Both the position numbers and the translations under genes were made by a program. The notes beneath the pieces were generated by a model. It was not told the DNA's origin. It ran no database searches and worked only from the letters and a program-made list of their open reading frames with translations. DNA of 38,808 bases from a virus. Shown here one piece after another: positions 2,518-30,005 of the stretch (position 1 is its first letter; each line of letters begins with the position of its first letter). Location of the stretch: IMG/VR virus record IMGVR_UViG_3300020410_001521, positions 1-38,808 of that record. One strand, given 5' to 3'.

Positions 2518-5430
2518 TTAACTCACTGTAATTGATAAAGAGGATGACCACGCGCCAATATCGCCACCATTGCGACACCGGGCCCGTAATTGATAGCTGC
2601 CAGCGCTCAGACTGACGGTACGCTTAAAACTCCCCTGGACACCGGGCAAACCAACGTTATCCAAAGGTAAATTTGACCAACTGCTGCCGCCATTACTGGA
2701 ATATTCAAACTCCATATCGGTCATATTGCACCGGCCATAATCGTGGTGACTGGGGTAGGATTTCAGCACATGGATGGAGCGGTCACCGGCTGTCACACTG
2801 GCCCCCTCATAGTAGAAACTGTCGTCTTTCTTTTGCTCTCCCATCTGCGCCAACGTCACGCAACGGATCCCATCCACTGCCGTATTCCATAATTCAATAA
2901 TGGCGTGGGAATGAGTCACGGTCAGCGCTTCGCGGGTGCCGTATTCCTGGGTAAGTTGACTGTTTGAAAGCCGCACGGTGCCGACATTGTGTACCCGCAA
3001 ATTACGGTAACTGCCCAGCATTGAGGCGTAATTAACCTCTGTGTAAGCTTTGGTATCAATAATGGAGTCTGAGCCGTGTTTACCGTCCAGATTGGTGACG
3101 TAATTGGTTTTTTCATAAATAGGCTGGGTAGACTGGTAGCCACCATTGATCACAATAATGTCGCTGTTACCAAACTCGCTGGAATAGTTACCGTAACTGC
3201 TATCGAGCAATAAATCGGCATCAAGGCCATGAATTTGCGCAAGCATTGCAAACGGCCCGTCGTTTTGATCAATCACAATGGCGTTTTGCCATATTTGACT
3301 TTGGCCCGTATACCCACCGGTATATTTAAACCCGTTTACTTCAACACTGTCGCAGCCATAGAGCGATATACCTTTTCGCACCGCATTCGCTTCAACGTTA
3401 TCAAACCGGAAATTTTTGCCGGCGCTTGAGTAGTCTATGAATCCAGCGTGGGGGTCGTTATACATTAAGCCTGTTACGGTCACATCAGCTGTCACTGTAT
3501 CGCGGATACGTGCCGCCTGCACAACGTCCCACTTAACTTCTATCGTGCCATCGCCGTTGTCAGTAGCACTCACTGTCGGCGTGGGCACCGCACCACTGCA
3601 CAAGAGTTTTTTCACGTAAATCGCGCCAATCGTGCCGGTAAAGCCCGTTGGCACAATGTCAATCACTGACGCCGAAACCGGGGCGCGGATAAGCCACACT
3701 TCAAAGCCTGGGATGGTATGACTGTAATCATCATCACTGAGCACTCCACCAATGCGCGGTTTAATGCTGCCAGCGGTGATATCGGTCAGTTGAATTTGAA
3801 TTTGATAGACTTCATCGGCTTCAAAGGCATAGCTGGCTGATAACACATCATTCTGCGCGGTGGCGCTGTAAACCTGACCGTTTTGCGTCCAATTTGCACC
3901 GCTAAACCCATCAGGGGCCACCACACGCGGCCCTAAATTGGCTGGCGGGTGTATTTCGAACTGGTGTGTATAAATTTCGGTTTCAGTAGAGTAGCGAAAG
4001 TAATCGATCGCCGTTTCACCCGCATCCAAATGCAGCCAGGCATCACCCGGTAAATACTTCACGCTCCCTTGCTTCATGGGGGCAATTTTTGCCCCGCTGG
4101 GCAGGTCTATGACATTCTCAAAGGGTCGGTCGCTACCCTGTACCGATACCGCATCCCATAAATCCGGGATATGGTTATACGGCATGTGTAGCACTTGGTT
4201 AGCATACACCGGTAGTACATCGGTAGTGACCGCAGCCAGCGTTTCGCGCCAGCTTTGCCCCGGCGTTAGGTTCAGCGTTTCGGTAAACACATTACCGTTA
4301 ATTCGCACGTTGTCGAGATTGACGGTGCAGTTCCCCAGGGCAGTGACAAACGGTAACGGCAGGCGGGCGCGGTAGTCGCCGCCCGTAATCGTGACGGTGA
4401 CACCCTCTGTCGCCACAAAGACGCCAAGACCGCCCGTTTCATCCAGATTTGTGCCGCAATTGATAAACTCACAATCCGCCGCACAATAATAAGCGTAGCT
4501 GTCACCGGCTAACTGGCGCGTCCATGCTTGAAAGCAATCATAAAACACACTGCCCGCACCGCCCACATAAATACCCGCTCCGCAAAAGTAGCTATGCAGG
4601 GCGCGAGCCTTGACCGGACAATGAAATACATAGGCAGGCCCGGAAAAACCGTGGTATTCCTGATAACGCACAATCGCAGTGCTCCCCGCTGCCATGAATA
4701 GAGCGGTATACAGCGTGTCACTTTCAGAAAAGCCGTGGTCGTCATTGACGATTTTTCCGCTGATGATTTCAATGTCAGAGTGACCACTACCCACACTGAC
4801 GCCGATATTGCCGCGCCCCCGCGCATTAAACCGCTGCAAGGATACGCCGCTGGCATTGTCGTTCAGCGCAAGGACTGGCGTTACACTCTCCAGCACATGC
4901 CAGTTGCGCAATGTTGCATTGGTCAGCGTAAAGCCGTTTGCATCCAGCAACGTGGTATTGATAGTAACGGCACCATCTATGGTAATTCCGTCATTATCAG
5001 ACAATAGGCGAATGGCCGCGTCAAAGTCACGAATACGCAAACCGTAAAACCGGTGATAAGCCGCATCGAGTTCAATCAGCGTTTGCGTGCCATCCCCTAT
5101 AACATAGGGCGCGGGTTTATCGAGCGTCACATCAATATCACGGGAGCCAACGGCCACGCCAAAATAAAAACTGACCTCGCCACCATACACAGCATCAATA
5201 TCGAGTAGCCACGCGGGGCGCTTTAACCGCCAATCTTGTACCGCATCAGGCAGACTGCCAATGTAAAAGTTATCGCCGTTTTCAAGACGAAACCCGGCAT
5301 CTTCATCGGTCGTGTACTCACGCGCATAAATCGAGCGCAATAACTGCGCGGGGTTACAATCCGCCCAGGATTCCCCCTCAGTCCAGCCACTTGCGCGAGA
5401 CAGGTTAATATCAAAACAGCGATTAGTCAT
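2518..5430 (-). CDS. Tail spike, right-handed beta-helix type
   Basis: A 970-aa protein in the spike position of the tail cluster. Residues about 90-400 and 640-860 are dominated by short repeated beta-strand turns rich in N, D, G and V (for example blocks such as GITIDGAVTI and VEVNGFKYTGG). This is the signature of pectate-lyase-like parallel beta-helices in phage depolymerases. The C-terminal 70 residues resemble a small Ig/FnIII-like domain (ending SLSITVS). The N-terminus lacks the virion-anchoring motif of Podoviridae spikes, so attachment is probably through the upstream 446-aa protein. The start ATG overlaps the stop of that gene by 8 bp. Polysaccharide binding or cleavage is inferred from the fold. 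No catalytic acid pair could be assigned by eye. Confidence 0.75.
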   Translation of the reverse strand: MTNRCFDINLSRASGWTEGESWADCNPAQLLRSIYAREYTTDEDAGFRLENGDNFYIGSLPDAVQDWRLKRPAWLLDIDAVYGGEVSFYFGVAVGSRDIDVTLDKPAPYVIGDGTQTLIELDAAYHRFYGLRIRDFDAAIRLLSDNDGITIDGAVTINTTLLDANGFTLTNATLRNWHVLESVTPVLALNDNASGVSLQRFNARGRGNIGVSVGSGHSDIEIISGKIVNDDHGFSESDTLYTALFMAAGSTAIVRYQEYHGFSGPAYVFHCPVKARALHSYFCGAGIYVGGAGSVFYDCFQAWTRQLAGDSYAYYCAADCEFINCGTNLDETGGLGVFVATEGVTVTITGGDYRARLPLPFVTALGNCTVNLDNVRINGNVFTETLNLTPGQSWRETLAAVTTDVLPVYANQVLHMPYNHIPDLWDAVSVQGSDRPFENVIDLPSGAKIAPMKQGSVKYLPGDAWLHLDAGETAIDYFRYSTETEIYTHQFEIHPPANLGPRVVAPDGFSGANWTQNGQVYSATAQNDVLSASYAFEADEVYQIQIQLTDITAGSIKPRIGGVLSDDDYSHTIPGFEVWLIRAPVSASVIDIVPTGFTGTIGAIYVKKLLCSGAVPTPTVSATDNGDGTIEVKWDVVQAARIRDTVTADVTVTGLMYNDPHAGFIDYSSAGKNFRFDNVEANAVRKGISLYGCDSVEVNGFKYTGGYTGQSQIWQNAIVIDQNDGPFAMLAQIHGLDADLLLDSSYGNYSSEFGNSDIIVINGGYQSTQPIYEKTNYVTNLDGKHGSDSIIDTKAYTEVNYASMLGSYRNLRVHNVGTVRLSNSQLTQEYGTREALTVTHSHAIIELWNTAVDGIRCVTLAQMGEQKKDDSFYYEGASVTAGDRSIHVLKSYPSHHDYGRCNMTDMEFEYSSNGGSSWSNLPLDNVGLPGVQGSFKRTVSLSAGSYQLRARCRNGGDIGAWSSSLSITVS

Positions 5431-10551: not shown

Positions 10552-10898
10552 TGTGCAATCTCAACTGAAAACGAAACAACGTAATCCATACTTTCTGTAA
10601 AGCTTACTGAGTAAGCCCCGTTTACTATTCTCATTTTTTGGTGTGTTGGGCCTGTTTTAGAAATGCTTTTACCATAAAACCAGTCAACGCCTTCGTTGTG
10701 TAAATCTCTGACAAAGTATTCAAATACCGGCAGCTGGGCGCCGAAGAGTTTTAACTGCACTGCTCTGATGGTAGATGCTCGTTTACTGCCTAAGCGCTGT
10801 ACTGAGTCACCAGGCATTCCGCTCGTAATGGTATTTAACTGAGTATCCTGCTGGGCAGAAAGGGTGCATGCAGGTAAATACGATGGATAATAAAGCAT
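10548..10898 (-). CDS. Distal tail / minor tail protein (lambda M-like position)
   Basis: A 116-aa protein placed immediately after the tape measure gene, the position of lambda gpM. It is beta-rich and ends in a strand pattern YSVSFTESMDYVVSFSVEIAQ. An internal WFYGKSISKTGP block precedes it. The ATG overlaps the tape measure stop (TAATG), showing translational coupling. The function is inferred from synteny: it would join the tail tube to the tip complex. No catalytic or metal-binding motif is visible. Confidence 0.65.
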   Translation of the reverse strand: MLYYPSYLPACTLSAQQDTQLNTITSGMPGDSVQRLGSKRASTIRAVQLKLFGAQLPVFEYFVRDLHNEGVDWFYGKSISKTGPTHQKMRIVNGAYSVSFTESMDYVVSFSVEIAQ

Positions 10899-13168
10899 TA
10901 ATACGCCGCAACCGGTTTTACATTTGATGATGAATGGAGGGCTTCACGGCTTTGGCTTGTGCTGTCTCGCATTTCACCAACAATAAGATGTAGTGCGCCG
11001 TCTCTGGTTAAGAATCGCGAACCCTCGCCAGAATAATTGTGTAAATGCACGTTGAAAACTGGCTGGGCATGTTGTGCTAACCCTTGATTCTTACCTGATG
11101 CAGTGGAATCAAGCTGCGACGTGTTGAATACTGCGCCGCCGTTACCGCCAAGTAAGAAGTTTCGACCACCCCATGACAGAACCTCTGGCTTGTTTCGTTC
11201 GCCTACCTCGACAATTGACTGGTTGCCAATCATACCGCCTTGTTCGAAACCAGCTACCCCAGATGCTTTTGCGGCATACAACGTACCTGCTGTAATAACA
11301 ACACCAGCTGCTGCTGCGCCAAGGAATGGGCCGGTAGGACCTAACCCAGCCAATGCGTTATACGCTTTCATTGCAGTATCGTATGTGTTTGTCCAAATGC
11401 TCTCGATTGAATTGCGCTTTTCTTCATCCAGTAGTGTTTGGCCTAAACTAATTGCAACCCTGGCATAACCCGCTTTTTTGCCTTCCATGCCATCGAAATA
11501 ACTGCCCATTACGCCTAACAATTCACTATAACCTTGCTTAATCTCTCGGTTACGTTGGTTCTCGATTTCAGCAAGTCGGGCATTGTGTTGAATAGTTAGC
11601 TGCTCATCAGCAAGTCTATATTCATTTTCAAGCTCACTCATTTGCTCAAGTTCTAACTTGAGAGCATAGAGCTTTGATGATTCGCTGTTTTCCGCCCAGG
11701 TTATAGCGCCATCTCCACCAGTTTCTTTTAGCGAAGATTTTTCGGCCTCTATTTTTTTCTTTAGATCAGTTACTGAGCCATAATGTTTTTCTAGTTCCAA
11801 AAATTCCTTTTCTAGTGCACTTTTTTGTCTTTCGAAGGCTCTGTTCTCTAATTCAGCTTCTTTCCCTTCTAACTCTAACTGAGCTTCGTAAATCTGCTGA
11901 TATTGGTTACGAGCACTGGTAACTAATGATTGTCCTTTAGCGGCAAACTCTTGTGCTTCTTGGGCGGCATTCTCTCTGGCTTTTTTTTCATCATCGATTA
12001 GCAGATCTTCTAAGCTAAGTCGGTTCTTTTTGGTTTGCTCTTCAGCTGCAACCTGAAACTTTTGTTGTACATCATCAATCCAGGTTTTTATCTTCTCTGA
12101 TGGCATGGGCTCATCGAGAAGATTTTGTAATTCCTGTCCGAGCTGATCAGTTGTGGCGTTAAATGAGTCTGCAAATGACTGTAAATTCTTAGCACCGGAT
12201 ACATCCAGGCCCAGCTTTTCAAGGAACCCTGCGCCCCACTGGCCAACGCTATTGAATAACTGAATCTGTGCATTCCATACTTCAGCCACCGCCTGGCGAA
12301 CAAGCATGAAGACAACTTGCAGGCCACGGCCCATATCAGATAGAAAGCCAATACCCTTAGCTACACCGACAACTACGTTTTGTGCAACTTGCCCAAAGCC
12401 GCCTGCTTCTTTAGCTGATTCTGTCCACATGTCTGATAGTGCGGCAATGATAGGGGCTGTTTCTGTGGCTAAGGCCTGCCCAAAACTATGCGTCGATTTT
12501 TGGGCGCGGTCAAAAGCATCGTTTGCCATTTCTACTTTGGCCGCATCGACTCTGTTAATGGCAAAGCCGAGTGCTTCGGCTTCGTCCATCATAGCTTTAA
12601 TGCCATCAGCGCCAAGGTTGAGTGTATTTAGGAGCTTTACACCCTCAGAATCGAAGAGTTTTTGAGTAAGGAATACTTTTTGCCCCTGGCTGCTGACATC
12701 CGCCATTTTCTCAGCAATTAATGCAAACTGCTCATCCGGGCTTTTGCTCTTAATTTCATCAATGGATATGCCCAGCTGGTCCAGCGCAACTTTAGCTTCA
12801 CCAGAGCCTGTTGCTGCCACTTGCCCAATCCGGCGCGTCATCCGTTGCAAGCCCATGTTCAGGGATTCTGTACTTGCGCCTGTTTGTTCTGCCGCGTGAT
12901 GCAGGCCGCTTAATGCCTGAGTGGTTAAGCCCAATCGGTCAGCCGTTTTTGCCTGCTGGTCTATAAATTGCGCGTTCTTAGTGTAAATGGCGGTAAACGC
13001 AGCAACACCGGCTACACCAAAACCGGCCATCACTTTAGCGGAAGAATTCACCATTTTCCGGGTTTTATTTGCCCAGTGTTCAGTATTCTTGTTCGCTTTT
13101 CGTAGCTCAGCAGTCAGCTTTGCACTTTTACCGATCAAGTCGATAGTGAGTGTTGCTATTGTCGCCAT
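10898..13168 (-). CDS. Tail tape measure protein
   Basis: A 756-aa tape measure protein that sets tail length and is extruded during DNA injection. The first 60 residues are helical with a KTRKMVNSSAKVMAGFGVAG segment leading into a hydrophobic stretch (about 47-62). The central 390-560 region is strongly coiled-coil, rich in E, Q, K and L. A hydrophobic glycine-alanine segment (about 618-645) is followed by the family's GFEQGGMIGNQSIVEVGERNKPEVL-type C-terminal block (about 652 onwards). It follows the tail chaperone fusion with a TAAATG junction. At 756 residues it predicts a tail somewhat shorter than lambda's 853-residue gpH would give. Confidence 0.93.
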   Translation of the reverse strand: MATIATLTIDLIGKSAKLTAELRKANKNTEHWANKTRKMVNSSAKVMAGFGVAGVAAFTAIYTKNAQFIDQQAKTADRLGLTTQALSGLHHAAEQTGASTESLNMGLQRMTRRIGQVAATGSGEAKVALDQLGISIDEIKSKSPDEQFALIAEKMADVSSQGQKVFLTQKLFDSEGVKLLNTLNLGADGIKAMMDEAEALGFAINRVDAAKVEMANDAFDRAQKSTHSFGQALATETAPIIAALSDMWTESAKEAGGFGQVAQNVVVGVAKGIGFLSDMGRGLQVVFMLVRQAVAEVWNAQIQLFNSVGQWGAGFLEKLGLDVSGAKNLQSFADSFNATTDQLGQELQNLLDEPMPSEKIKTWIDDVQQKFQVAAEEQTKKNRLSLEDLLIDDEKKARENAAQEAQEFAAKGQSLVTSARNQYQQIYEAQLELEGKEAELENRAFERQKSALEKEFLELEKHYGSVTDLKKKIEAEKSSLKETGGDGAITWAENSESSKLYALKLELEQMSELENEYRLADEQLTIQHNARLAEIENQRNREIKQGYSELLGVMGSYFDGMEGKKAGYARVAISLGQTLLDEEKRNSIESIWTNTYDTAMKAYNALAGLGPTGPFLGAAAAGVVITAGTLYAAKASGVAGFEQGGMIGNQSIVEVGERNKPEVLSWGGRNFLLGGNGGAVFNTSQLDSTASGKNQGLAQHAQPVFNVHLHNYSGEGSRFLTRDGALHLIVGEMRDSTSQSREALHSSSNVKPVAAY

Positions 13169-13746
13169 TTACGTTGGTCTCTTATTTTTCCGCCATGGGC
13201 AGGTGTTTAAGAATGCTTCGGTGTCGCGCCGCTTTTGCTCTTTCTCGATTTCTCGTTGCCTGCTTCTGTCAAAGGTCAGGCCCATTTTCAGCCCTTGGTG
13301 GACTAATCGAAGTTCGAGTTCTTCAGCCGGTAAGCGTTGCCGCAGGTCGTAGAGTGAGCAACCCAAGTTATCTGCCAGATTGCAGAGTGCGGCTAACTCG
13401 GGCTGCTCTTTTAGTTTTTTTCAATAGCTTCGAGGTTGTCTTGCTTTAGGTCGATAAAGAACAACCCGGTACTATAAATCATGGCAAGTTGATGGGTATC
13501 AAGCAGGTTGGGTAACTTCGCTGCTTCTTTATCATTAAACTCACCGTGTAGCATGTAATAGATATTCCGCTGTGCAACTTTTTCCAATTTTTTAAAGTCG
13601 GCCTGGTCTTCGCTGAACAGCTCTTTGGCTCTGGCTTCATCAACTGCCGGTAAACGGTGAAGTTTCATTTTACCAATGCCGGGAATATCAAATTCGCGCG
13701 AGGAAGTGGCTAACTCCCCCGCCATAATTTGCGCTGCTGTGATCAT
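13169..13746 (-). CDS. Tail assembly chaperone, GT-like product of -1 frameshift
   Basis: The frameshift product of about 192 aa: 111 residues of the G-like frame followed by 81 residues of the -1 frame (13414 down to 13169). After slippage on A-AAA-AAC the frame reads on without a stop through LKEQPELAALCNLADNL into the basic helical domain (RSRQREIEKEQKRRD) and ends at TAA 13169-13171, immediately before the tape measure ATG. The downstream frame has no convincing start of its own, since the only candidate is a TTG at 13366. A cysteine at the start of the T-like part and the CPWRKNKRP tail are notable. In lambda the T domain recruits tube subunits to the tape measure. Confidence 0.8.
13411..13746 (-). 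CDS. Tail assembly chaperone, G-like short product
   Basis: The zero-frame product of 111 aa (ATG 13746; AAGGT 8 nt upstream; a TTG 6 nt further up is less likely). It is the equivalent of lambda gpG, a soluble chaperone that coats the tape measure during tail assembly and is absent from the virion. It is acidic and helical (ARAKELFSEDQADFKKLEKV). The gene stops at TAA 13411-13413 directly after the slippery heptamer A-AAA-AAC, so a fraction of ribosomes should continue in the -1 frame. The location between tube and tape measure genes is the standard one. Confidence 0.82.
   Translation of the reverse strand: MITAAQIMAGELATSSREFDIPGIGKMKLHRLPAVDEARAKELFSEDQADFKKLEKVAQRNIYYMLHGEFNDKEAAKLPNLLDTHQLAMIYSTGLFFIDLKQDNLEAIEKN
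13414..13420 (-). promoter_or_regulatory. Programmed -1 frameshift site A-AAA-AAC
   Basis: On the minus strand the codons read ATT GAA AAA AAC TAA. The heptamer A AAA AAC is in the correct phase (X XXY YYZ) and is followed at once by the zero-frame stop. A possible stimulatory hairpin starts 7 nt downstream: GCA pairs with TGC, a bulge follows, then GAGT pairs with ACTC around a 7-nt loop. The -1 frame is open from here to 13169. The site, its phase and the open frame are seen directly; the efficiency is unknown. Confidence 0.85.
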
Positions 13747-13757
13747 CAACAATTACC

Positions 13758-14219
13758 TTATGCTGCTGGTAGGGTAGAGAACGCAACTTGTTGTAGCTTG
13801 CCGATACAGCCGAACATCTGTTTACCCGATTCCTTGCCAGATTCACCACTGAAGTGATCTTGCGGTAAAAAGACGACATCCTGAACTTCACCACTGGCTC
13901 GAATTACTTTAATGGTGATGGAATCGCGAGCTTTCACCAATGTTGTAAATGCGGCCTGGCTTGCATCGCCCGGTTTATGACGAAATGCAAGCTCAAAGTC
14001 CTGGTCTTCAGGTAATGCACGTTTGTGGTAGCTGCGATTGGCAGCGGCTATGTCGGTGTCATCTTCGTATTGGTCACCAGAGTTGATTTGTGGGATAACA
14101 TCCAAACCAGGCAAAAATGTATCAACGGTACCAATGCCGCTTGAGCAAAATTGCAATGTGGAAAGGTGTGAATCAACGGTATCAGCTGCTGGGCCTGTTA
14201 CTGGAGTTGGATCTGGCAT
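13758..14219 (-). CDS. Major tail tube protein
   Basis: A 153-aa protein in the tail tube position, between the tail terminator gene and the chaperone genes. It has the family layout: a short Pro-rich N-terminus, a conserved LPGLDVIPQI turn, a DYEDDTDIAA-like acidic loop, an RSYHKRALPEDQDFEL strand-turn-strand and a C-terminal FSGESGKESGKQMFG loop preceding the last strand. It forms hexameric rings around the tape measure protein. The assignment rests on size, beta-rich composition and synteny. Confidence 0.8.
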   Translation of the reverse strand: MPDPTPVTGPAADTVDSHLSTLQFCSSGIGTVDTFLPGLDVIPQINSGDQYEDDTDIAAANRSYHKRALPEDQDFELAFRHKPGDASQAAFTTLVKARDSITIKVIRASGEVQDVVFLPQDHFSGESGKESGKQMFGCIGKLQQVAFSTLPAA

Positions 14220-14222
14220 GGT

Positions 14223-14609
14223 TTATACCTCTTTATAGTAAAAAACATAATCTAATGACTCACGGTATAAACCAGAGTCGGTTTCAAAATCGGGTAAACG
14301 GCTTTCTTTTTTTGCGAACTGCACTTTTATTGATGTGTCAGCAAAGCCTTTTTTGTTAAAGATATTATCTATCGCTTTTGCTATGGCCTGTGCAGTTGGC
14401 GGGTTTTGGCTGTAGCAATCAAACTGAATTGCCGCTTCACTTTGATTATTTTCGAGTTGCACTTCTATTGGCGTTTCGTCACTGATGACTCGCAGTAACA
14501 CATAGTTGTCTTGAGAGTTGTGCTTAGTTGTTAAGTGAAATTTACTACCAATTAGAGCCCTTAATTCGTTTGAATTAAGGGCATGTTCTCGAATGCTGTT
14601 TTCTATCAT
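14223..14609 (-). CDS. Tail terminator / completion protein (DUF3168-like)
   Basis: A 128-aa protein placed between the HK97 gp10-like gene and the tube gene, the site of the tail terminator (lambda gpU-like, often DUF3168). It begins with a helix (MIENSIREHALNSNELRALIG) and continues with strands and a QFDCYSQNPPTAQAIAKAID block that matches the family strand-loop-helix. It caps the finished tail so it can join the head. Its ATG overlaps the stop of the upstream gene by 4 bp. Confidence 0.7.
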   Translation of the reverse strand: MIENSIREHALNSNELRALIGSKFHLTTKHNSQDNYVLLRVISDETPIEVQLENNQSEAAIQFDCYSQNPPTAQAIAKAIDNIFNKKGFADTSIKVQFAKKESRLPDFETDSGLYRESLDYVFYYKEV

Positions 14610-15112
14610 TTGGATTGGTACTTTTTCGCAATGCGGTTTTGGGCCAATTTGATTTTCCTGGCCAACCGGCGATTGATAACGGTGACTGAAGCCTGTTTTT
14701 TCTTTCGAAATGAATTGCGAATAAACGGTTTTTGTTTAGTTCGTGATGTGCCGTACTCTACTTGCACTATGTAGGGCACTTTAAACACACCGGCTTTGAC
14801 CAGCGAAACAACATTCTTACCAAACTTTCGTGTGACATTAGCCTTTCTGTTTGTGCTGGCTCTAACTTTAATACGTGATTTCAAGAAACCAGGGCGGATT
14901 TCTACCTTTGAACCGCTTTTAGTTTTCACAATGCGGTTGAATTCTGATTCAGGTGCATCCTTACGCATTGTGTCTTCAAACTCTTTTGCGCCATCGCGCA
15001 GTGCACTGGTCATCATTCCGGTGGCTTTCTTTGCGCCAACTTCCTTTCCAATTTCGACCAAAGCCTTTTCCATGGCTTTTAATCCTTGAATATCAATACC
15101 AGTTTCAAGCAT
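14606..15112 (-). CDS. HK97 gp10-like tail completion protein
   Basis: A 168-aa basic protein of the HK97 gp10 / minor-tail type. It opens with a helix GLKAMEKALVEIGKEVG followed by ALRDGAKEFEDTMRKDAP. A strand pair is followed by the family's VEYGTSRTKQKPFIRNSF motif (about 130-147). The C-terminus is very lysine- and arginine-rich. It acts at the head-tail interface or in tail completion. It overlaps both neighbours by 4-8 bp inside the head-tail joining cluster. Confidence 0.83.
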   Translation of the reverse strand: MLETGIDIQGLKAMEKALVEIGKEVGAKKATGMMTSALRDGAKEFEDTMRKDAPESEFNRIVKTKSGSKVEIRPGFLKSRIKVRASTNRKANVTRKFGKNVVSLVKAGVFKVPYIVQVEYGTSRTKQKPFIRNSFRKKKQASVTVINRRLARKIKLAQNRIAKKYQSK

Positions 15113-15434
15113 CGGTAATTTCTCTTGCCTGTATTAGCGTTACCGTATTTGCAAAATCCACATTGAGGGGCTTACCAACAATTTCGTAAAACGTATTCTT
15201 ATGCTTTATGCGGTGTTTGGCGGTGATTCTCTGAGAAAAATGGCATTTTATTGTGTAGGTAATTTCACCTAAAACCCTGCCGCTGAGTTCAGTTTCATTA
15301 GATGTGCCAGTCTCAATACTTGCCCATTTGCTGAAGTCGTCTTTCCAGTTAATGACGTTATAGCCATCTTCGCTAATAACTTGTTTTTGAAACGTGACGC
15401 GGTTTCTAAGTTGCCCTGCTGGTAATTGCTTCAC
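15105..15434 (-). CDS. Head closure / head-tail adaptor protein
   Basis: A 109-aa protein of the phage head-tail joining family (SPP1 gp16-like; Pfam Phage_H_T_join). The family signature is present: MKQLPAGQLRNRVTFQK at the N-terminus, then a W-containing WASIETGTSN strand, then IKCHFSQRITAKHRIKHKN. The C-terminal FYEIVGKPLNVD is typical as well. It plugs the connector after packaging. The start is a GTG that overlaps the stop of the upstream gene (GTGA). Confidence 0.85.
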   Translation of the reverse strand: MKQLPAGQLRNRVTFQKQVISEDGYNVINWKDDFSKWASIETGTSNETELSGRVLGEITYTIKCHFSQRITAKHRIKHKNTFYEIVGKPLNVDFANTVTLIQAREITDA

Positions 15435-16039
15435 AATAATTCCACCGTTAGTTCTTCACAAATTGCTTTAAATGCATTTGGCACAGAATGCAGTTGCACT
15501 GGCGCGGTGTCTTCACGGTTGCGGAACCAGTCTGTTACTAACACTAAAATAGCCTGCTTAGCTAACTGGTAGCTGTCTGGGTCTATGATGTTGTCGTTAT
15601 CAATTTTGTTATCTGTTACTAAGGCGTGACCCATTACGCATTCGATTTGAATTGCGTCAGCTACCTTAAATCCCGGGGCAGGCCATGAACCACCAAGTTT
15701 TGGTGCAATCTTCGCTTTTAGGCCGTGGTGAATTACGCGGTATTCAGAGGCTGCTAACGTAACCAACTCACCTTGATTGTTGATGTACTTAATAGAATTG
15801 ATGCTCTGCAGAGGGGTGTACGGCAATTCAATTTCGCACGGAAACTTTGGTAAGGCGAACTGCCAGGTTTGTTGAACCAGAAAACGGCCAGTACGTTTTT
15901 CAAAGCGTTTACGGGCCCGGGCTATCATTGGCTTGATTACATCTGCATGATCATGGTCAGCATAAGCATGATCAAACACTTCCTGAAGTGTAACCGGTTC
16001 AACGGTGGGTGCATTAATAACTCTGCAGAGCATATTCAC
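15431..16039 (-). CDS. Head-tail connector (gp6-like adaptor)
   Basis: A 202-aa protein of the HK97 gp6 / SPP1 gp15 adaptor type. It contains an EPVTLQEVFDHAYADHDHAD helix, the KRFEKRTGRFLVQQTW block (about 46-61) and the downstream PYTPLQSINSIKYIN turn. The C-terminal helices follow (YQLAKQAILVLVTDWFRNRED). This is the shared order of connector proteins that bind under the portal. The start is GTG 16039 or ATG 16033; neither has a strong Shine-Dalgarno. Confidence 0.85.
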   Translation of the reverse strand: MNMLCRVINAPTVEPVTLQEVFDHAYADHDHADVIKPMIARARKRFEKRTGRFLVQQTWQFALPKFPCEIELPYTPLQSINSIKYINNQGELVTLAASEYRVIHHGLKAKIAPKLGGSWPAPGFKVADAIQIECVMGHALVTDNKIDNDNIIDPDSYQLAKQAILVLVTDWFRNREDTAPVQLHSVPNAFKAICEELTVELL

Positions 16040-16044
16040 AGTGA

Positions 16045-16302
16045 TTACTCGTCTTTACCTGTTGAGCCAGAGTCAGTGTCGTCACTGTCTTCTGAATCAG
16101 GCTTGTCCAGGTCAATTACTTCTTCTTTCAAGGTTTTTGTGCAGTAATCGATACCAGCTTTGTCAGACGAAAGCTGCCCAGCATCAACAAGCGGTTTTAA
16201 CAGCGCTTCGTCACCTTTAACCAGCTTGTTTGGTTGAATTTCCTGACCCGCGATAATGGTTGCCACGAGAACGCGGCAGAGAAGCTTTTTGGTTGTTGCC
16301 AT
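16045..16302 (-). CDS. Small hypothetical protein after the capsid gene
   Basis: An 85-aa protein with a basic N-terminal half and a very acidic C-terminus (LDKPDSEDSDDTDSGSTGKDE type). Such proteins often sit between capsid and connector genes in HK97-like phages, and their role is unknown. The middle part (QEIQPNKLVKGDEALLKPLVDAGQLS) resembles the small domain of head-accessory proteins. It starts just after the terminator that follows the capsid gene (16334-16362), so it may need antitermination or its own start to be transcribed. Confidence 0.65.
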   Translation of the reverse strand: MATTKKLLCRVLVATIIAGQEIQPNKLVKGDEALLKPLVDAGQLSSDKAGIDYCTKTLKEEVIDLDKPDSEDSDDTDSGSTGKDE

Positions 16303-16333
16303 GGTGGTTTGCTCTTAATGAATGAAGTTAAAC

Positions 16334-16362
16334 AAAAACACCCCGGTATAGGCCGAGGTGTT
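16334..16362 (-). terminator. Intrinsic terminator after the capsid gene
   Basis: On the minus strand a 10-bp stem (AACACCTCGG paired with CCGGGGTGTT, one G-T pair) closes a 6-nt loop and is followed by a short T tract (TTTTTG). It begins 20 bp after the capsid stop. It would reduce expression of the connector and tail genes relative to the capsid. Confidence 0.8.
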
Positions 16363-16381
16363 AGCCGTTTACAATGCGCTA

Positions 16382-17626
16382 TTAAGACGCGCTGTTTTGG
16401 TAGTATTTAACTGCGCCGCCTACATCAATAAAGCGACCACCAGAGCGCATCATTGCCAGGAAGCCAACCTGACCCTTACGAGCATAGGCTGAATCGGTAA
16501 ATCGGAAGAACAGGATTTGCATAACGTCACGGATTACGTATTTGCTCATGTCACCAAAGGCAATGGACTTAGCGTTTGCGGCCATTTGCGCCATATGTTG
16601 GTTAATAACGTACTGGTAGCCGTTGATAGTCGGTGGAGCACCAACGTCATGGCCAGGTAACCAGATAGGGCGGCCTTGACTGTCTTTCTTCTTCTTCAAT
16701 ACTTTCAGCGTACCGTCATGGAACATGAACGCGCAGTTGCCACTGGCACGATAAGCAGGATCAACGCTGTGCTCTAAATCAGTCAGGTCGTCAAAGTCCA
16801 CATCGGTTGTTTTACCTGTAACACCAACTTTACCACTTGAGATACCAGCAATCAGGCCGTGTGGTTGGCTGGTACCGGTACCATTAATAAAATAGTTCTC
16901 GGTAGAACGTCCCAGACGTTGACCAATGCGGTCATTAACATAGCCTTCCAGATCAAACAGACTGTCCTGCAGTAATTCAAATGGTACCGCAATAACTTTC
17001 GAGCTGAACTTGTAGGTGTCGATGGCCAGTGTGCCGAATGAAGTATCTTCATCAGCTGCTGTGCTATTTTCGCCAAGAATTTCGCCAGCTTCACTGGTTG
17101 CATCTGCGGTAGGAAAGTTCATAGATGAACCGGTAGCAGACTGAATAACCGTGGCAACATTGCGCATGCCGCCATAGGCTTTCATTGCCTGAGAAATGCC
17201 CGGAGCCATTTCAGTTTCAGTTAAATAGCCACCTTCTGAGCCCGTTCCTGTACTCATGGTGTTGCGTGGGCTATTCACTTTAGCGGCCATGATTGCGCGT
17301 TGTTCTTCAGTCATGGCTGAAGGGCCACCCACTAACCAGGCTTTGAATGCATCTTTTTCCTGAGTCGTTAAAGCGGTTGCTTCATCAATACTGATACCTT
17401 CCTGGTCAGCTCGTTGTTGATTACTCAGTGCATTGGATGCCTGAATATCCAATACTTTTTGCTCTCGCTCTAAGTCAGCATCCAATTTAGCGATATCATT
17501 GACCATATTTTCATATTTGGTCTGATGCTCTGGGGTCCACTCCTGATCCTTGGGGTGGTCTGAAACTAATGCTTTTAACTCTGCAGCGAGTTTATTACGC
17601 TGCTGGCGCTTTGCTTGAAATGACAT
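16382..17626 (-). CDS. Major capsid protein, HK97 fold
   Basis: A 414-aa HK97-fold capsid protein. Residues 1-90 form a charged helical scaffold-like delta domain (EHQTKYENMVNDIAKLDADLEREQKVL). The capsid body begins near a STGTGSEGGYLTETEM block (about 126-141), the usual start of the mature protein after protease cleavage. The SSKVIAVPFELLQDSLFDLEGYV-type E-loop/spine block and the RPIWLPGH...INGYQYVI P-domain follow. I chose ATG 17626 because TAAAGGAAATAACT precedes it; the frame continues 7 codons upstream without a better start. It is flanked on both sides by terminators. Confidence 0.93.
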   Translation of the reverse strand: MSFQAKRQQRNKLAAELKALVSDHPKDQEWTPEHQTKYENMVNDIAKLDADLEREQKVLDIQASNALSNQQRADQEGISIDEATALTTQEKDAFKAWLVGGPSAMTEEQRAIMAAKVNSPRNTMSTGTGSEGGYLTETEMAPGISQAMKAYGGMRNVATVIQSATGSSMNFPTADATSEAGEILGENSTAADEDTSFGTLAIDTYKFSSKVIAVPFELLQDSLFDLEGYVNDRIGQRLGRSTENYFINGTGTSQPHGLIAGISSGKVGVTGKTTDVDFDDLTDLEHSVDPAYRASGNCAFMFHDGTLKVLKKKKDSQGRPIWLPGHDVGAPPTINGYQYVINQHMAQMAANAKSIAFGDMSKYVIRDVMQILFFRFTDSAYARKGQVGFLAMMRSGGRFIDVGGAVKYYQNSAS

Positions 17627-17645
17627 AGTTATTTCCTTTAGGTAC

Positions 17646-17665
17646 AAAAAAGCCCCTTTCGGGGC
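17646..17665 (-). terminator. Terminator-like hairpin just upstream of the capsid gene
   Basis: On the minus strand GCCCC-GAAA-GGGGC is followed by six T residues, a textbook intrinsic terminator with a GNRA-type tetraloop. It lies between the protease stop (17685) and the capsid start (17626), leaving only about 20 bp before the capsid ATG. No promoter fits in that gap. Confidence 0.85.
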
Positions 17666-17684
17666 GGTGTGTTAGCCAGCAGGG

Positions 17685-18437
17685 CTAGCCAGTAATTTGC
17701 AGCATGTTGGCAAATCGCTCTAGCCGTTCACGCTGCGGAAAGGTTTCTTCTGGTTCTGGGGCTCGCGGGGCATTCTTATACACGGAGAGATCCCACGCTT
17801 TATTGGTGAATTTGTTTTCAGTGCTGCTGTTGCTGCGTTGAATAATGCCGTCTACAAAGCCGTGCTCTACTGCCTCTTGTGCTGTAAACCAAGTCTCTGC
17901 TTGCATCCAGTCTCGAATCTGTTGCTCCTCTGCCTGTGTTTTGTTGGCGTAATCAGCAACAATGGTATTGTCTACCTTGTCCAGCATATTCGCCGTTTTA
18001 CGAATCTCAGAGGCGTTACCTAATGCCAGAGTCCAGGCATAGTGGATCATGTACATGCCAGACTCAGCAATATTGATAGTATCGCCAGCCATGGCAATGC
18101 GCGTTGCTGCACTCGCTGCCCAACCATCAATGTGAACATGAATGTTCGCCGGGTGAGTGATCAGGCTGGTATGAATAGCGGTGGCTTCGAATACATCACC
18201 ACCGGGGCTATTAATGTAAAGGTCGATGTCGGTTGCATCCGGCATAGCGAGCAGGGCAGACTTCACCATTTCAGCAGATACACCCCACCAGGCATCAATC
18301 ACATCATAAATCAGAATGGCCGGGCGGTTTTCATCAGCACTGGCCAGCGGCGAACGGTCTAGCACTTTAAAGTCTGGGGTGTTGTTCGAACTGCAGTTGG
18401 CTTTCACTAACTGCATTAACTTACGATGATTTCTCAT
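17685..18437 (-). CDS. ClpP-like head maturation protease
   Basis: A 250-aa serine protease of the ClpP/phage prohead protease type. The motif YINSPGGDVFEA (74-85) forms the oxyanion-binding strand. DGWAASAAT (104-112) carries nucleophile Ser109 and MYMIHYAW (129-135) carries His132. The acid is probably within LDKVDNTIVADY. The N-terminus has about 35 extra residues and the C-terminus a proline-rich charged tail that may guide prohead binding. It cleaves the delta domain of the capsid protein during maturation. The order portal, protease, capsid is standard for HK97-like heads. Confidence 0.92.
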   Translation of the reverse strand: MRNHRKLMQLVKANCSSNNTPDFKVLDRSPLASADENRPAILIYDVIDAWWGVSAEMVKSALLAMPDATDIDLYINSPGGDVFEATAIHTSLITHPANIHVHIDGWAASAATRIAMAGDTINIAESGMYMIHYAWTLALGNASEIRKTANMLDKVDNTIVADYANKTQAEEQQIRDWMQAETWFTAQEAVEHGFVDGIIQRSNSSTENKFTNKAWDLSVYKNAPRAPEPEETFPQRERLERFANMLQITG

Positions 18438-18440
18438 AGT

Positions 18441-19694
18441 TTATTCCACGGTTGTATTTTGGCTGGCAGTGTTCGGGTCGTAAGGCTTGTCGTACCGTTC
18501 GTCATTGATAGGCGGCATGTTTTCGAGTTTTCTTACCTCGTTTACCGTCATCCAACCCGGCCCTTGTGAGCCGCCGATAGCCTGACGGTAGGCTTCATTA
18601 CGATCTTTAAGCGTTAGGCGCATTAAGTTTGCAGAGATAAATTCTGCAAAGTTGTCGTCATATAAAAACAGCTTGCGATTAATCTCTTGCTGGAAACGAT
18701 TCAGGTGTGGGCCTAATGTATAACGCAGGAAAGAAAGCCCGATTTCACCAATGCCACTACCCCAGCTGGTTGTCTTTTGTTCCTGGTTAACCATAAAGCT
18801 GGGTAATCCAAACGCCCGGGCAATGTCGGTGATTTGAAATTCGCGGGACTCTAGCAGCTGGGAATCTTTGGCAGAGACGCTTAGCGTTTTAACATCGGTG
18901 CTGTTATCTAAAACAAGTGGATATTTGCTGTTTTCAACGCCACCGTAAGTTTTAACCCATGCATTCCTGAAGGATTCTTTTTGTTCTTCGGCCCATTTCC
19001 CTTGCTTAACTACCGCAACACGTTGGGTTGAGCCAGACTTGAAGAACTCACCGCTATGCTGTTCCATCGCGATTTCTAAACCAATGCTGTTCAGTGCGCC
19101 CCATTGAATGACAGACATAGAGCGCAAGCCGTTAAAACCAAAGCCGGGGAAATGCAGAATGTCATCCTGATCAAAACCCCGGGGTTCACCATCTAATGTA
19201 AAGAAATAGACTAACCGGCCATTTCGCTTTTCTACCACCATGCCAACTGGGCTAATAGGTAACAGCTCTTCCGGTTCGCCAGCTCGGTTGCGAAGGATAA
19301 CGACAAACCCGTCTCCATGAAGCAACATGCTCGATACGATGAATTCCCAGGCAGTTGCTGCACTCCAGATGGGAGTGAATTGCAGATTAAATAGTGTTTC
19401 CAGTGTATGGTTTATGCGTTTTCGAGAGCCATCAGAGGTCTTTTCGAAAATATGCACCGGCATTTGAGAGATAGCACCGGCAATTAAGCGAACACACGCA
19501 AAAACAATAGAGACTTTCATTGACGTTTTAGGTGTGACTGATGGACCCGCAACAGACGGAACTACCCCAAATAAGTCAAACAATCGGCCAATATCCGTAG
19601 ATAATATGCCTTCCTGATCAGCTGCGTTGCTTACTTGCGTACTTTCAGCTGCTGCTTCTTCCGACTTACGGCTAAAAAAGGGTAGTTTAAACAT
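18441..19694 (-). CDS. Portal protein, HK97 family
   Basis: A 417-aa portal protein of the HK97 family (Pfam Phage_portal). Family marks include SMKVSIVFACVRLIAGAI near the N-terminus and HTLETLFN. A WEFIVSSMLLHGDGFVVILRN helix-strand and the LHFPGFGFNGLRSMSVI loop (about residues 178-194) follow. GLPSFMVNQEQKTTSWGSGIG and the C-terminal MTVNEVRKLENMPPI block complete the pattern. Twelve copies form the ring through which the terminase packages DNA. The ATG overlaps the terminase stop (TAATG), coupling their translation. Confidence 0.93.
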   Translation of the reverse strand: MFKLPFFSRKSEEAAAESTQVSNAADQEGILSTDIGRLFDLFGVVPSVAGPSVTPKTSMKVSIVFACVRLIAGAISQMPVHIFEKTSDGSRKRINHTLETLFNLQFTPIWSAATAWEFIVSSMLLHGDGFVVILRNRAGEPEELLPISPVGMVVEKRNGRLVYFFTLDGEPRGFDQDDILHFPGFGFNGLRSMSVIQWGALNSIGLEIAMEQHSGEFFKSGSTQRVAVVKQGKWAEEQKESFRNAWVKTYGGVENSKYPLVLDNSTDVKTLSVSAKDSQLLESREFQITDIARAFGLPSFMVNQEQKTTSWGSGIGEIGLSFLRYTLGPHLNRFQQEINRKLFLYDDNFAEFISANLMRLTLKDRNEAYRQAIGGSQGPGWMTVNEVRKLENMPPINDERYDKPYDPNTASQNTTVE

Positions 19695-21403
19695 TAGAGT
19701 TCCAAAAATTCTTGGTTTGACCCGTCTTCTTCATCAGGTGTCCAGGCACCGATAAACGACTGAAGCATAGCTACAGCGGTGTCTATCTTGTTGTCTTTGT
19801 GTTCTTTCACCGGGCGAATGTACTTACCGTCCATCGTCTCTTTGGCAATGACGTTACCTAAACACCAGGTAAGCACCGGGCATCCTGTATGGTGTATGCG
19901 CCCCTGACCTAACAGGTTTCCAAATTCACGCATGGCCGGTGAGAAGTTTGTGTAGTTCTGCGCCACTTTTATTGGCTCTATGGCTGTTTTGTTATGAACA
20001 CGCTGAGCAATAGGCGCTGCGCCTGCAGGGTCGTAAAACAGGCCGGTAACAAAGTGTTCTTCATTATCATGCTCTATGGCGTTTTCTACTTCGTCATAGT
20101 CAATGCTGGAGCCTTCACACATGATCAATGCATCTTGATCTATCCAGTCGCGGTAGATATCTATCTCTTCCGCTTTCTTCTCGGTGACATAAGTTCGTGG
20201 GAAGAAGTAATAGTGAGTCTTACCGGCGATTTCTTTGGTAAAGCAGCTTACATCTGCAGTTAAGTCATCAGACTCTGATAAGTCCACACCTTTGGTGCAC
20301 TCTTCGCCTATGAACTGTTCTATGCTCAGTTCAGGGTCTGCCCAACGTTTCCAATCCTCAAGGTTTAGCCACGACTCCCTGGCACCAACCCATAGATTAA
20401 GGTGTTTCGTTTTAAAGGCGTTTTGCTTCCGCGCTGATTGTTTGGCCTTACCCAGCTGGTTAAGAAGAAACTCTTTTTCTACTGAAACACCATAATTGGG
20501 GTTCGCTTTAATGAGCGCTGCTTCTGTTTGCCAGTCATCGTCTTTGTCGATGGTGTAGATCATGGCAAACACAGTTTCGTCAGTACGGGTGCCTTCAAGA
20601 ATTTCCTGACACTCTTTTTGATACTGACCGCACGGCCCAAACCAATTAGCACCGGCAGTGGATATTATCCATTCCAGAGGTTGTTCCCTTGCCCCCATGC
20701 CGGTGATCATGGTGTCACGTTGATCATCATCATCGTGTTCGTGATACTCATCGCAGAGGTAACAGCTTGGCGAGCCACCGTCGCCCGGGTTACCAATCAG
20801 CCTTTCAAACCTACCACCATCTGTCGTTCGCTCTATCTGCTGAGCAAAGAGTTCTATGCTGAAACGGCGTCTAAAGATAGGCTGCTTTGTGGCCATCTTT
20901 TTTGCTGGCGAGAACACCTCGTTAGCTTGTTTCTGGGTTGTAGCACCACAAAATACTTCAGCTGCTGGTTCATCGTCATTAGCCAACATGTATAGGCCAA
21001 TGGGGGCTACCCAGGTAGATTTACCGTTCTTGCGCGGTACCAGAGTAAATGCTGTTCTGAAGCGGCGGCGTTTGGTGGTGATATGCTTCCAACCAAATAC
21101 CTGAGCGGTGATCCACTTTTGCCAAGGGCTGAGCGCTATTAACGATTCTTGCCCTTTCGCCCGGGCCCATTTCCCTTTAACGTGATTAAAGGTCTCGATG
21201 AAACGAATTACTTTGTTTACCGCTTCAACATCGAAGTAGTAAGGAAACTCCGGTGTGCCAGCTCGTTCTAAATCTCTGCTTTCACGCTCAACAGCCAGCC
21301 GTTCGTATTTGTTTGCTGGCCTCTTACCACTTAGAACATCAGCAGCATACTGCTCAATATCCTTGAGGTGATCTTTCTGAAATGTTGGATAAGTATTTCG
21401 CAT
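19694..21403 (-). CDS. terL: Terminase large subunit
   Basis: A 569-aa DNA packaging motor of the HK97-type terminase family. The ATPase has a Walker A-like loop PRKNGKST (123-130) and a Walker B CYLCDEYHEH (214-223) with the catalytic Glu219 next to the Asp. ISTAGANWFGP follows as the coupling motif. The nuclease domain begins near KGVDLSESDDLTA (about 371-383, first metal-binding Asp) and ends with KIDTAVAMLQS near the C-terminus, supplying another conserved Asp. It translocates DNA into the prohead and cuts it, together with TerS and the HNH protein. The start ATG follows the TerS stop directly (TAAATG). Confidence 0.95.
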   Translation of the reverse strand: MRNTYPTFQKDHLKDIEQYAADVLSGKRPANKYERLAVERESRDLERAGTPEFPYYFDVEAVNKVIRFIETFNHVKGKWARAKGQESLIALSPWQKWITAQVFGWKHITTKRRRFRTAFTLVPRKNGKSTWVAPIGLYMLANDDEPAAEVFCGATTQKQANEVFSPAKKMATKQPIFRRRFSIELFAQQIERTTDGGRFERLIGNPGDGGSPSCYLCDEYHEHDDDDQRDTMITGMGAREQPLEWIISTAGANWFGPCGQYQKECQEILEGTRTDETVFAMIYTIDKDDDWQTEAALIKANPNYGVSVEKEFLLNQLGKAKQSARKQNAFKTKHLNLWVGARESWLNLEDWKRWADPELSIEQFIGEECTKGVDLSESDDLTADVSCFTKEIAGKTHYYFFPRTYVTEKKAEEIDIYRDWIDQDALIMCEGSSIDYDEVENAIEHDNEEHFVTGLFYDPAGAAPIAQRVHNKTAIEPIKVAQNYTNFSPAMREFGNLLGQGRIHHTGCPVLTWCLGNVIAKETMDGKYIRPVKEHKDNKIDTAVAMLQSFIGAWTPDEEDGSNQEFLEL

Positions 21404-23714: not shown

Positions 23715-24021
23715 TAGCGCCTCCTGCTATTTTGGAGTGGTCACCCTGTTTTTTACTGTGACCACCCACCGTGACCGCTGAAACCCTTGCTATTACTACT
23801 CTGGTCATACTGGTCATAGTGGTCATAGTGTTTTTATATACGTTAGGAAGTGTTACTAGGTAGTTGATAGGATTGATGCGTGGCCGCTCGTGCGCGCGCG
23901 TGTACGTGTGTGTGTGCAAATTACCGTGACCACCGTGACCACCGTGACCAAGCCAGTATAAACGTAGCCTGTAGCGGTCATTGTTAATGGTCATGGTCAT
24001 ACTAAATAAGCTATTTATCAT
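23701..24021 (-). CDS. Doubtful ORF across the GGTCAY repeat array
   Basis: An open frame of 106 codons fills the gap between the helicase and Q genes. Its ATG overlaps the helicase stop (ATGATAAATAG) and its own stop overlaps the Q start, as a coupled gene would. However, the product is low-complexity and derives from DNA repeats (MTMT, GHGGHGGHG, TMTTMTSMT, THTYTRAH). I think the DNA sequence itself is what is selected here, but a short coupled peptide cannot be excluded. Confidence 0.25.
   Translation of the reverse strand: MINSLFSMTMTINNDRYRLRLYWLGHGGHGGHGNLHTHTYTRAHERPRINPINYLVTLPNVYKNTMTTMTSMTRVVIARVSAVTVGGHSKKQGDHSKIAGGANDFS
23739..24000. repeat. Array of twelve GGTCAY motifs (candidate origin iterons)
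   Basis: GGTCAC/T occurs on the plus strand at 23739, 23803, 23812, 23821, 23976, 23989 and 23995. The reverse complement GTGACC occurs at 23758, 23771, 23926, 23935 and 23944. Two triplets have an exact 9-bp period (23803-23826 and 23926-23949) and face each other. The array lies directly after the primase-helicase genes, where replication proteins of satellite and temperate phages often bind. The repeats are seen; the origin role is inferred. Confidence 0.75.
23889..23918. other. 30-bp alternating purine-pyrimidine tract
   Basis: Perfect alternation of pyrimidine and purine runs over 30 bp: (CG)TGCGCGCGCG, then TGTACG, then (TG)n and CA. It sits in the middle of the GGTCAY array, between the two opposing triplets. 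Such DNA can adopt the Z form or melt under supercoiling. The tract is seen; any function is inferred. Confidence 0.7.
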
Positions 24022-25372
24022 GCCAAAAGCCCTCCGGTGGTACATAAAAAGCCGGGCGCTTACCATCAACACGCTTCTTCTTTTTCTCAAACCCAAACCT
24101 GTGCATTATTAAACCAACCCGTTTTTGCTCGGGTGGTCGCATGGCTTGTGGGTCCATATCCAGCGCTTCGGCCATGATATCACCCATTGAGTAATCTACT
24201 CGCATGTTTCGTTTTAGCCAGTCATAGATGATGGGTTCCCAAACATCAGAGTCGAACCTGTCTTCCTGTTGCACCTCGAACAAGTGCTTATAGTCGTCGT
24301 CTGGCCACCATTTCATACCATCTTTGTACATCTTAAGCGCTTCGGCCCAGAGCTGGTCTCTGTCCTGCTTAATTGCAGCCTGACAAATCTTCGTACACGT
24401 TACCGGCCAGTAACGCCGGTTACCGGTTGAGTCTTTAAGATATCTATCCTGATTGGTGGTACCTACAAACACACATTGCCTGGGGAACTCCTGCACCATG
24501 CGCCCGTAACTGGGGCGGTAACGGTCTGTTTGAGAACCAAAGAACTGTTTAGCCCTTGTATTCTCTGCTTTATTAAAAGAGTCCAGCTCGGCTAATTCTA
24601 TACACCACATGCCCTGCATTTGTTGAAAGCTGTCTTTGTTACCAAGCTCCATTGGTGTATCGGTAAACCATTTACCAAACAGGTTGTGTAACATGCTGGA
24701 TTTCCCCAACCCCTGCAGGCCTTCCAAAATTAATACCGAGTCCACCTTAACCGGTGGTCGCATCACCCTTGCTATAGCTGAGACTAAAAAGAAAGCACCA
24801 ACCAGCGCTGCATAATCTGAATCTTCTACTCCTAAATAGTCATGCAACCAACTGAGCACCCTATGCTTACCATCCCATTCCAAAGTAGCCAGGTAGTCTT
24901 TAACAGGATGAAAGGCGTTTTCTTCTGAGTGAACTAATATGGCGCCCATGACATCGCTGGGCTTGGGAGTAAAGCCGTATAATTCAGAAAGGTAGATCCT
25001 TAGACGTTCTGTGTCGGTGTCTGTCCATTCTCCAACCGTGCCCATTTTAAAGGGCGGGGCATTGCGCTTCATAATGCGGTAACTAAAGCTGCAGTAACCC
25101 AGCACACCTTTAAAAGACGGGTCGTACTCGAGCACCAACTTGGTATTACTGATGTTTGCCAGGCGATTACCGTTATTGGTAGTTTGAAAGCGAGCCGTCC
25201 AAGGTTGCTCATCCCCCATTAAAGGCTGCGCCGCGCCAGCGGTTGGCGGCGGGGGAGGGGGTGAGTCATTCGCTGCTGGTTGTTTAATAGCAGCCATTAG
25301 CTGAGACTTAACAACATCCAGCCCAGCATTAACGTGCAGATCATTCCAGTCTGTTAAAGAACAAGAGGCCAC
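24011..25372 (-). CDS. VirE/VapE-type replicative helicase
   Basis: A 453-aa P-loop ATPase of the virulence-associated protein E family. It has Walker A EGLQGLGKSS (about 217-226), a Walker B-like IELAELDSF (about 257-265), a sensor block FVGTTNQDRYL and the signature DSTGNRRYWPV. The first 25 residues (SLTDWNDLHVNAGLDVVKSQL) match the end motif of TOPRIM primases, and a proline run PPPPPP follows at about 38-44. The start is a GTG that overlaps the primase stop (TAGTG) with AAGGAGG 7 nt upstream. It probably unwinds DNA at the origin together with the primase. Confidence 0.88.
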   Translation of the reverse strand: MASCSLTDWNDLHVNAGLDVVKSQLMAAIKQPAANDSPPPPPPTAGAAQPLMGDEQPWTARFQTTNNGNRLANISNTKLVLEYDPSFKGVLGYCSFSYRIMKRNAPPFKMGTVGEWTDTDTERLRIYLSELYGFTPKPSDVMGAILVHSEENAFHPVKDYLATLEWDGKHRVLSWLHDYLGVEDSDYAALVGAFFLVSAIARVMRPPVKVDSVLILEGLQGLGKSSMLHNLFGKWFTDTPMELGNKDSFQQMQGMWCIELAELDSFNKAENTRAKQFFGSQTDRYRPSYGRMVQEFPRQCVFVGTTNQDRYLKDSTGNRRYWPVTCTKICQAAIKQDRDQLWAEALKMYKDGMKWWPDDDYKHLFEVQQEDRFDSDVWEPIIYDWLKRNMRVDYSMGDIMAEALDMDPQAMRPPEQKRVGLIMHRFGFEKKKKRVDGKRPAFYVPPEGFWHDK

Positions 25373-27752: not shown

Positions 27753-27818
27753 AATAGCATAACTCTAGTTATTTTCAACGAAAACCAATCTTGTTTGTAT
27801 TAAATAACGATAGTTATC
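27735..27818. promoter_or_regulatory. OR-like operators (three 16-bp sites)
   Basis: Three sites fit NATAAC-N4-GTTDTY: 27735-27750 (AATAACTTAGGTTGTT), 27758-27773 (CATAACTCTAGTTATT) and 27803-27818 (AATAACGATAGTTATC). They lie between the cro-like and CI starts. Sites 1 and 2 cover the leftward promoter, and site 3 covers the CI promoter region. CI and Cro are the expected ligands. Confidence 0.85.
27751..27778 (-). promoter_or_regulatory. Leftward early promoter for cro and replication genes
   Basis: On the minus strand TTGAAA (27778-27773) and TATTTT (27756-27751) are 16 bp apart, with operator 2 lying in the spacer. Transcription would start over operator 1. This is a close match to a sigma-70 promoter, placed where lambda has PR. 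Confidence 0.7.
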
Positions 27819-27829
27819 AAAATATAGGT

Positions 27830-29588: not shown

Positions 29589-30005
29589 ATGAAAACAATC
29601 AGAACAACCACAGGTTACCAGCTGGAGAATATCCAGGTAGATGCTAAGCCGTATTCTAAGCTGCCCACGCAGCAAGCCAGAACGCTGTTATTTGTAGCGG
29701 CTGGTTTCCCCCAAAAGCGTATCGCTAACGAAATGGGCGTTAAAACGAGCACCATTAAACAGGCTTGTTCTGATTTAGCTTTTCGCTTCAACACCTATTC
29801 CATGCGTGAAACCGTGCACAAGGCCATTCAGCAGGGGGTTTTGCGTTACATGCTTTGCTTCATGCTGTGCCTGGTCAGTTCGGTTAACGAAGATGTTGAA
29901 CGCAGTTACCGCACAACAACACGCCTCATGAGAACCAATCGAACTATTCGCGCTACACGGTTAAACCGATTGCGTGAACTGCAAATCAATCTATTAACTG
30001 CCTAG
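29589..30005 (+). CDS. LuxR-type HTH regulator, first rightward early gene
   Basis: A 138-aa protein with a GerE/LuxR-type helix-turn-helix: LPTQQARTLLFVAAGFPQKRIANEMGVKTSTIKQACSDL (about 26-64). It has no receiver or ligand-binding domain; the C-terminus is arginine-rich and helical. As first gene behind the OL-like operators it occupies the place of an early activator or antiterminator. It may switch on the following small genes. The target is unknown. Confidence 0.8.
   Translation: MKTIRTTTGYQLENIQVDAKPYSKLPTQQARTLLFVAAGFPQKRIANEMGVKTSTIKQACSDLAFRFNTYSMRETVHKAIQQGVLRYMLCFMLCLVSSVNEDVERSYRTTTRLMRTNRTIRATRLNRLRELQINLLTA

Follow-up and report, generated by a model that had tools for sequence, protein, structure and literature searches.

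In the analysed window, the 38,808-base record of a marine phage, ribosomes very probably undergo a programmed -1 frameshift like that of lambda G/GT ahead of the tape measure gene, as predicted by comparison with related loci. The analysis itself gives the sequence signal, its conservation, selection on the coding frame and RNA covariation, and from these we infer slippage, its rate and the roles of the products in tail assembly. Most ribosomes would synthesize the 111-aa zero-frame chaperone and halt at the TAA directly 3' of A_AAA_AAC, while the others, fewer in number, would be slowed at the 15-bp hairpin that begins 5 nt further on, step back by one nucleotide at the heptamer and translate 81 further codons, yielding a G-T-like fusion of ~192 aa. 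In lambda, as PMC5009743 recounts for G/GT, the tape measure protein is bound by the short product as well as by the less abundant -1 fusion, whose extension brings in the tail tube protein; G-T frameshifting is described there as broadly conserved among long-tailed phages. By analogy with lambda, both products may bind the tape measure protein here as well, and the extension may recruit the tail tube protein, after which both would leave.

The features of the locus are listed in Table 1. The zero-frame gene ends in ATT GAA AAA AAC TAA and has an alternative TTG start upstream at 13752, which would lengthen its product to 113 aa. A preceding reading made from the sequence only had placed A-AAA-AAC in the correct zero-frame phase directly next to the stop, and had described the -1 frame as open for 81 codons down to the base before the tape measure ATG. 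Both points were borne out, with the heptamer at 13420-13414 followed by TAA at 13413-13411, and with the -1 frame terminating in TAA at 13171-13169, without a gap to the tape measure ATG at 13168. The gene for the probable major tail (tube) protein lies directly 5' of the zero-frame gene, so that the two chaperone frames are flanked by it on one side and by the tape measure gene on the other. Since the -1 frame of the window contains a stop three codons 5' of the first post-shift codon, the shift must happen on the heptamer itself.

Table 1. Features of the putative frameshift locus and its neighbouring genes.
Feature	Position	Strand	Details
Window (virus record)	38,808 bases		structural genes on minus strand
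Zero-frame gene (G-like)	13411..13746	-	111 aa + TAA; ATG at 13746
Slippery heptamer A_AAA_AAC	13414..13420	-	canonical phase
Zero-frame stop TAA	13411..13413	-	immediately 3' of heptamer
-1 frame (T-like)	13169..13414	-	81 codons from last heptamer base + TAA
Tape measure protein, 756 aa	10898..13168	-	phrog_9483 tail length tape measure protein, E 2.5e-84
Probable major tail (tube) protein, 153 aa	13758..14219	-	phrog_158 major tail protein, E 5.4e-4
Putative stimulatory hairpin	13356..13408	-	15-bp lower + 5-bp upper helix, -30.8 kcal/mol
Hairpin lower helix, 15 bp	13408-13394 with 13370-13356	-	
Hairpin upper helix, 5 bp	13386-13382 with 13375-13371	-	

With 19 copies of AAAAAAC in the window (plus strand 8, minus strand 11), the heptamer by itself means little. 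The 21 minus-strand ORFs (7650 codons) contain 24 in-phase X_XXY_YYZ heptamers, a single one of which, the A_AAA_AAC described above, abuts its stop. When the 243 nt downstream were shuffled 20,000 times, 540 of the shuffled sequences still had an open -1 frame, and its openness alone is therefore weak-to-modest evidence. The case for the predicted signal rests on conservation, not on the single sequence.

Relatives were sought in scans of viral contigs, in a scan of genome contigs and in a genome search at family level, with matches in 6 of 395 genomes; an order-level genome search matched 2 of 394, namely G001 again and a weak match that was dropped, and neither was counted. Loci with both products numbered 28, from 23 viral contigs and 5 bacterial genomes, among the latter Pseudoalteromonas prydzensis DSM 14232 (L012, the same place as L051). 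Repeat contigs among L013-L021, L029-L039, L041-L047, L058 and L061-L078 were counted once. Two loci were left out: L056 (G028), a chance-like match within a 526-aa frame with no tblastn match to either product, and L057 (G683), in which 34 residues only were matched and the run is of the AAAAAAG type. Many of the relatives are duplicates, and together with the window they comprise 16 distinct 67-mers. At ~1200-1900 of L057 we noticed two frames accompanied by an A-rich run that ends in AAAAAAG; their -1 frame contains LGCTLGEL...SRELTLW, similar to the -1 product of the window over the 34 matched residues.

The sequence-only reading had proposed an alignment of homologous phages, and both the in-phase heptamer and the open -1 frame were present in 28 out of 28 relatives examined. 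The heptamer is AAAAAAC in 25 and AAAAAAA in 3 of them, A_AAA_AAG was seen in none, and the -1 frame is open for 77-82 codons throughout. The lower stem is likewise found in the same register in all 28, with 11-15 of its 15 pairs. The zero-frame stop follows the heptamer immediately in 24 relatives; in the remaining 4, which belong to two diverged lineages (L053/L079 and L054/L080), it comes 6 or 9 codons further on. Because the stop has moved in these lineages while the heptamer stayed, the heptamer is the conserved feature. It is kept over deep divergence, usually against the stop: identity to the window's zero-frame product ranges from 76% to 28% over 10 relatives, and the most diverged relative shares 28% (zero frame) and 34% (-1 frame) protein identity with the window.

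The -1 frame has a median dN/dS of 0.093 (36 pairs among 9 of the 29 sequences, after removal of duplicates and of the most diverged ones; of the 8 pairs that include the window, 4 in the zero frame and 1 in the -1 frame yielded no computable dS). Differences at the three codon positions number 451/166/1173, i.e. they are biased to the third position. By this sequence comparison the -1 frame is under purifying selection, and from the low dN/dS together with the third-position bias it follows that the -1 product would be a real protein segment. Its residues P5, E6 and L10 are invariant, and conserved residues reach up to the heptamer. Over codons 1-20 of the -1 frame synonymous differences amount to 165/652, versus 757/1656 in the remainder, synonymous change being lowered over the stem.

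A hairpin downstream of the heptamer had also been proposed, with a start 7 nt away. The hairpin is present (z -5.17; 0 of 200 shuffles as good), but in the window it begins after 5 nt; in most relatives the spacer is 6-7 nt, the first pair being lost there. Known signals generally have a hairpin onset 5-8 nt 3' of the heptamer, according to the part of PMC4066793 that deals with spacing. A downstream stimulatory structure is frequent in lambda G/GT-type signals but not indispensable to them. The hairpin is the strongest of 3482 60-nt folds over positions 10898-21403, the 10.5-kb structural gene block. For covariation, 17 sequences (15 distinct) were aligned without gaps, taken from the set of 29 formed by the window and its 28 relatives after near-duplicates had been set aside. 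In this alignment 92.0% of the stem cells are paired and double-sided changes affect 6 pairs in 10 cells; five measures of covariation were each equalled by 0-1 of 500 shuffles, and sliding the stem partner reduced pairing to 28-45%. With close relatives only, the double changes did not reach significance (1 pair, 261 of 500 shuffles), and they became significant once diverged relatives joined the alignment. L059/L060, found after the alignment was made and thus outside it, keep 12 of the 15 lower stem pairs. From the compensatory changes in the stem and the reduced synonymous change over it we conclude that the hairpin is constrained as RNA, as judged from the aligned sequences. Rfam gave no match at gathering score, and ARAGORN gave no tRNA. 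The hairpin was also considered as an intrinsic terminator of the operon and rejected as such; the overlapping terminator-like site sits on the opposite (plus) strand and has a 6-pair stem.

The same fusion could arise by transcriptional slippage, if RNA polymerase added an A in the run of 7 A (8 in some relatives) and the edited mRNA were translated conventionally. The run GAAAAAAAC is indeed a homopolymer, it is longer in 3 of the 28 relatives, and some IS elements use this route, as described in PMC5009743. However, 25 of the 28 relatives hold just 7 A followed by C, and the hairpin sits 3' of the run, 5-7 nt off, where it could act on a ribosome, whereas the polymerase case documented in PMC5009743 depends on a hairpin in the nascent RNA that lies 5' of where the polymerase slips. 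We therefore regard polymerase slippage as a very unlikely source of the fusion. A missing base that broke one intact gene, be it a sequencing error or a sign of degeneration, is a thought that the homopolymer invites, such runs being prone to indel errors, yet we consider it next to impossible: the identical split recurs in all 28 relatives, which come from different viral contigs and bacterial genomes (with the window, 16 non-identical sequences), heptamer and stem are retained while the proteins diverge to 28-34% identity, and one continuous frame was seen in none of the 28.

Termination and reinitiation, by which the -1 frame would be a separate gene translated without any frameshift, would suit the adjacency of the stop and the coupled gene order, both frequent in phage operons, and the -1 frame does contain a TTG at 13366. 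This TTG is the first possible start, as no ATG occurs in the -1 frame of the window before codon 44, but it falls within the hairpin stem, and initiation there would lose the residues conserved up to the heptamer, including the three invariant ones. In L053 and L054 the conservation of the -1 frame still starts at the heptamer even though the zero frame extends 6 or 9 codons beyond it, and reinitiation gives no role to a heptamer kept in exact phase in every one of the 28 relatives. With conservation setting in at the heptamer and the earliest potential start codon located in the stem, we hold reinitiation to be extremely improbable.

Phage lambda G/G-T uses G_GGA_AAG as its slippery sequence, and the IS1-family transposase frameshifts at A_AAA_AAC. 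Here, in contrast to lambda, the heptamer is A_AAA_AAC with an adjoining stop, and no family-level sequence match was found. The lambda G/GT layout proposed from the sequence is supported by gene order, phase, the adjoining stop, the hairpin, conservation in 28 of 28 relatives, purifying selection and a modest match of the zero-frame model to the HK97 chaperone fold. The slippery sequence does differ from that of lambda, as had been pointed out, but it is nothing special: AAAAAAC had already been proposed for the same gene in Caulobacter phage phiCbK gp93/gp94 and relatives (PMC3556154), 'possibly' in that of Paenibacillus phage Dragolir (PMC6003738), and in that of the haloarchaeal virus HCTV-2 (PMC5009743), as far as the relevant passages of these papers go. 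Likened by their published descriptions, these cases share gene and heptamer with the window and differ in phage and host. The kind of signal is thus already known, and slippery sequences vary among phages. IS elements also use the A_AAA_AAC motif for -1 frameshifting in bacteria (PMC4066793), there in a transposase gene, and the section of that source on the proven A_AAA_AAC IS cluster names no established stimulator, whereas a 15-bp hairpin is present here.

In the E. coli reporter tests covered in PMC4066793, A_AAA_AAC ranked among the inefficient heptamers, so the frameshift rate may be low. One could imagine that an inefficient heptamer and an unusually strong hairpin were selected together to set a fusion ratio specific to Alteromonadales, which may act for example through the tRNA-Asn of these hosts, or to combine ribosomal with transcriptional slippage; we consider this rather unlikely. 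The relatives offer a natural series in which the influence of heptamer and hairpin on the ratio could be measured, with AAAAAAC or AAAAAAA, the stop adjacent or 6-9 codons on, and 11-15 stem pairs.

The designation of the two frames as tail chaperones stands in so far as position and a modest match to the HK97 fold favour it, but no family model backs it above cut-off. PHROGs and Pfam gave no tail-chaperone family match above cut-off for either product; Pfam Phage_TAC_11 (PF11836) scored 14.8 bits against a curated cut-off of 27.8, below membership. A PDB sequence search returned chance-level matches only, and tblastn with the zero-frame protein found nothing in the phages collection. The AlphaFold2 model of the zero-frame product (mean pLDDT 74.1) shows a beta hairpin followed by helices. 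Among the 201 PDB matches that Foldseek listed (E up to 10), 2ob9, the tail assembly chaperone of HK97, came out on top, with E 0.15, which is weak, probability 0.92 and TM 0.53, and the HK97 chaperone was also ranked second (E 0.30, probability 0.77). A VIA comparison with 2ob9 gave Z 8.3 over 97 aligned residues (rmsd 4.9), followed by YqbN with Z 6.1; 2ob9 is the closest structural match of the model, but has only 12% identity. The fold match is supportive, although near the noise level stated for the tool. The model of the -1 frame is all helical (mean pLDDT 78.0, pTM 0.47) and had no confident structural match in BFVD.

At this locus gene callers would give either the 111-aa product by itself or two short ORFs treated as unrelated. 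The sequence-only reading had warned that annotation by ORF calling would split or miss the second protein. In Alteromonas phage PB15 (L049, KX982260.1), which has a related tape measure, both pieces are annotated as separate hypothetical proteins. The two PB15 genes (2888-3495) precede the tape measure gene and overlap via an in-phase C_CCA_AAG located 40 nt before the end of the first gene, and from there the -1 frame continues without a stop into the second gene; by its sequence the pair is likely an unannotated G/GT-type frameshift. Vibrio phage K303 (L050, 2895-3490) also carries a related tape measure preceded by two short genes, the second of which can be read in the -1 frame. Its junction contains no in-phase X_XXY_YYZ heptamer, so not all related phages use such a signal. 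No paper on this signal in Pseudoalteromonas phages was found among the open-licence papers searched, and the locus adds a clean, covariation-supported candidate -1 signal in a probable tail-chaperone family missed by Pfam and PHROGs at their cut-offs.

Further features were noted elsewhere in the window. An integrase ORF on the minus strand (37861-38808) runs to the window end and a CI-like repressor lies at 27791-28537, and given these two the window is a temperate phage. Primase and helicase are encoded on the minus strand (24011-26418) by two consecutive ORFs meeting at 25372; the first third of phrog_2249, a DNA primase family of 802 positions, matches one of them and the rest matches the other. 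The plus strand encodes a sigma-factor-like protein (phrog_3282, 29589-30005) and a DHH phosphoesterase (phrog_4771, 33377-34201), neither within the structural block. A phrog_11747 protein on the plus strand (36319-37242) weakly matches a family of head maturation proteases and is distinct from the maturation protease at 17685-18437.
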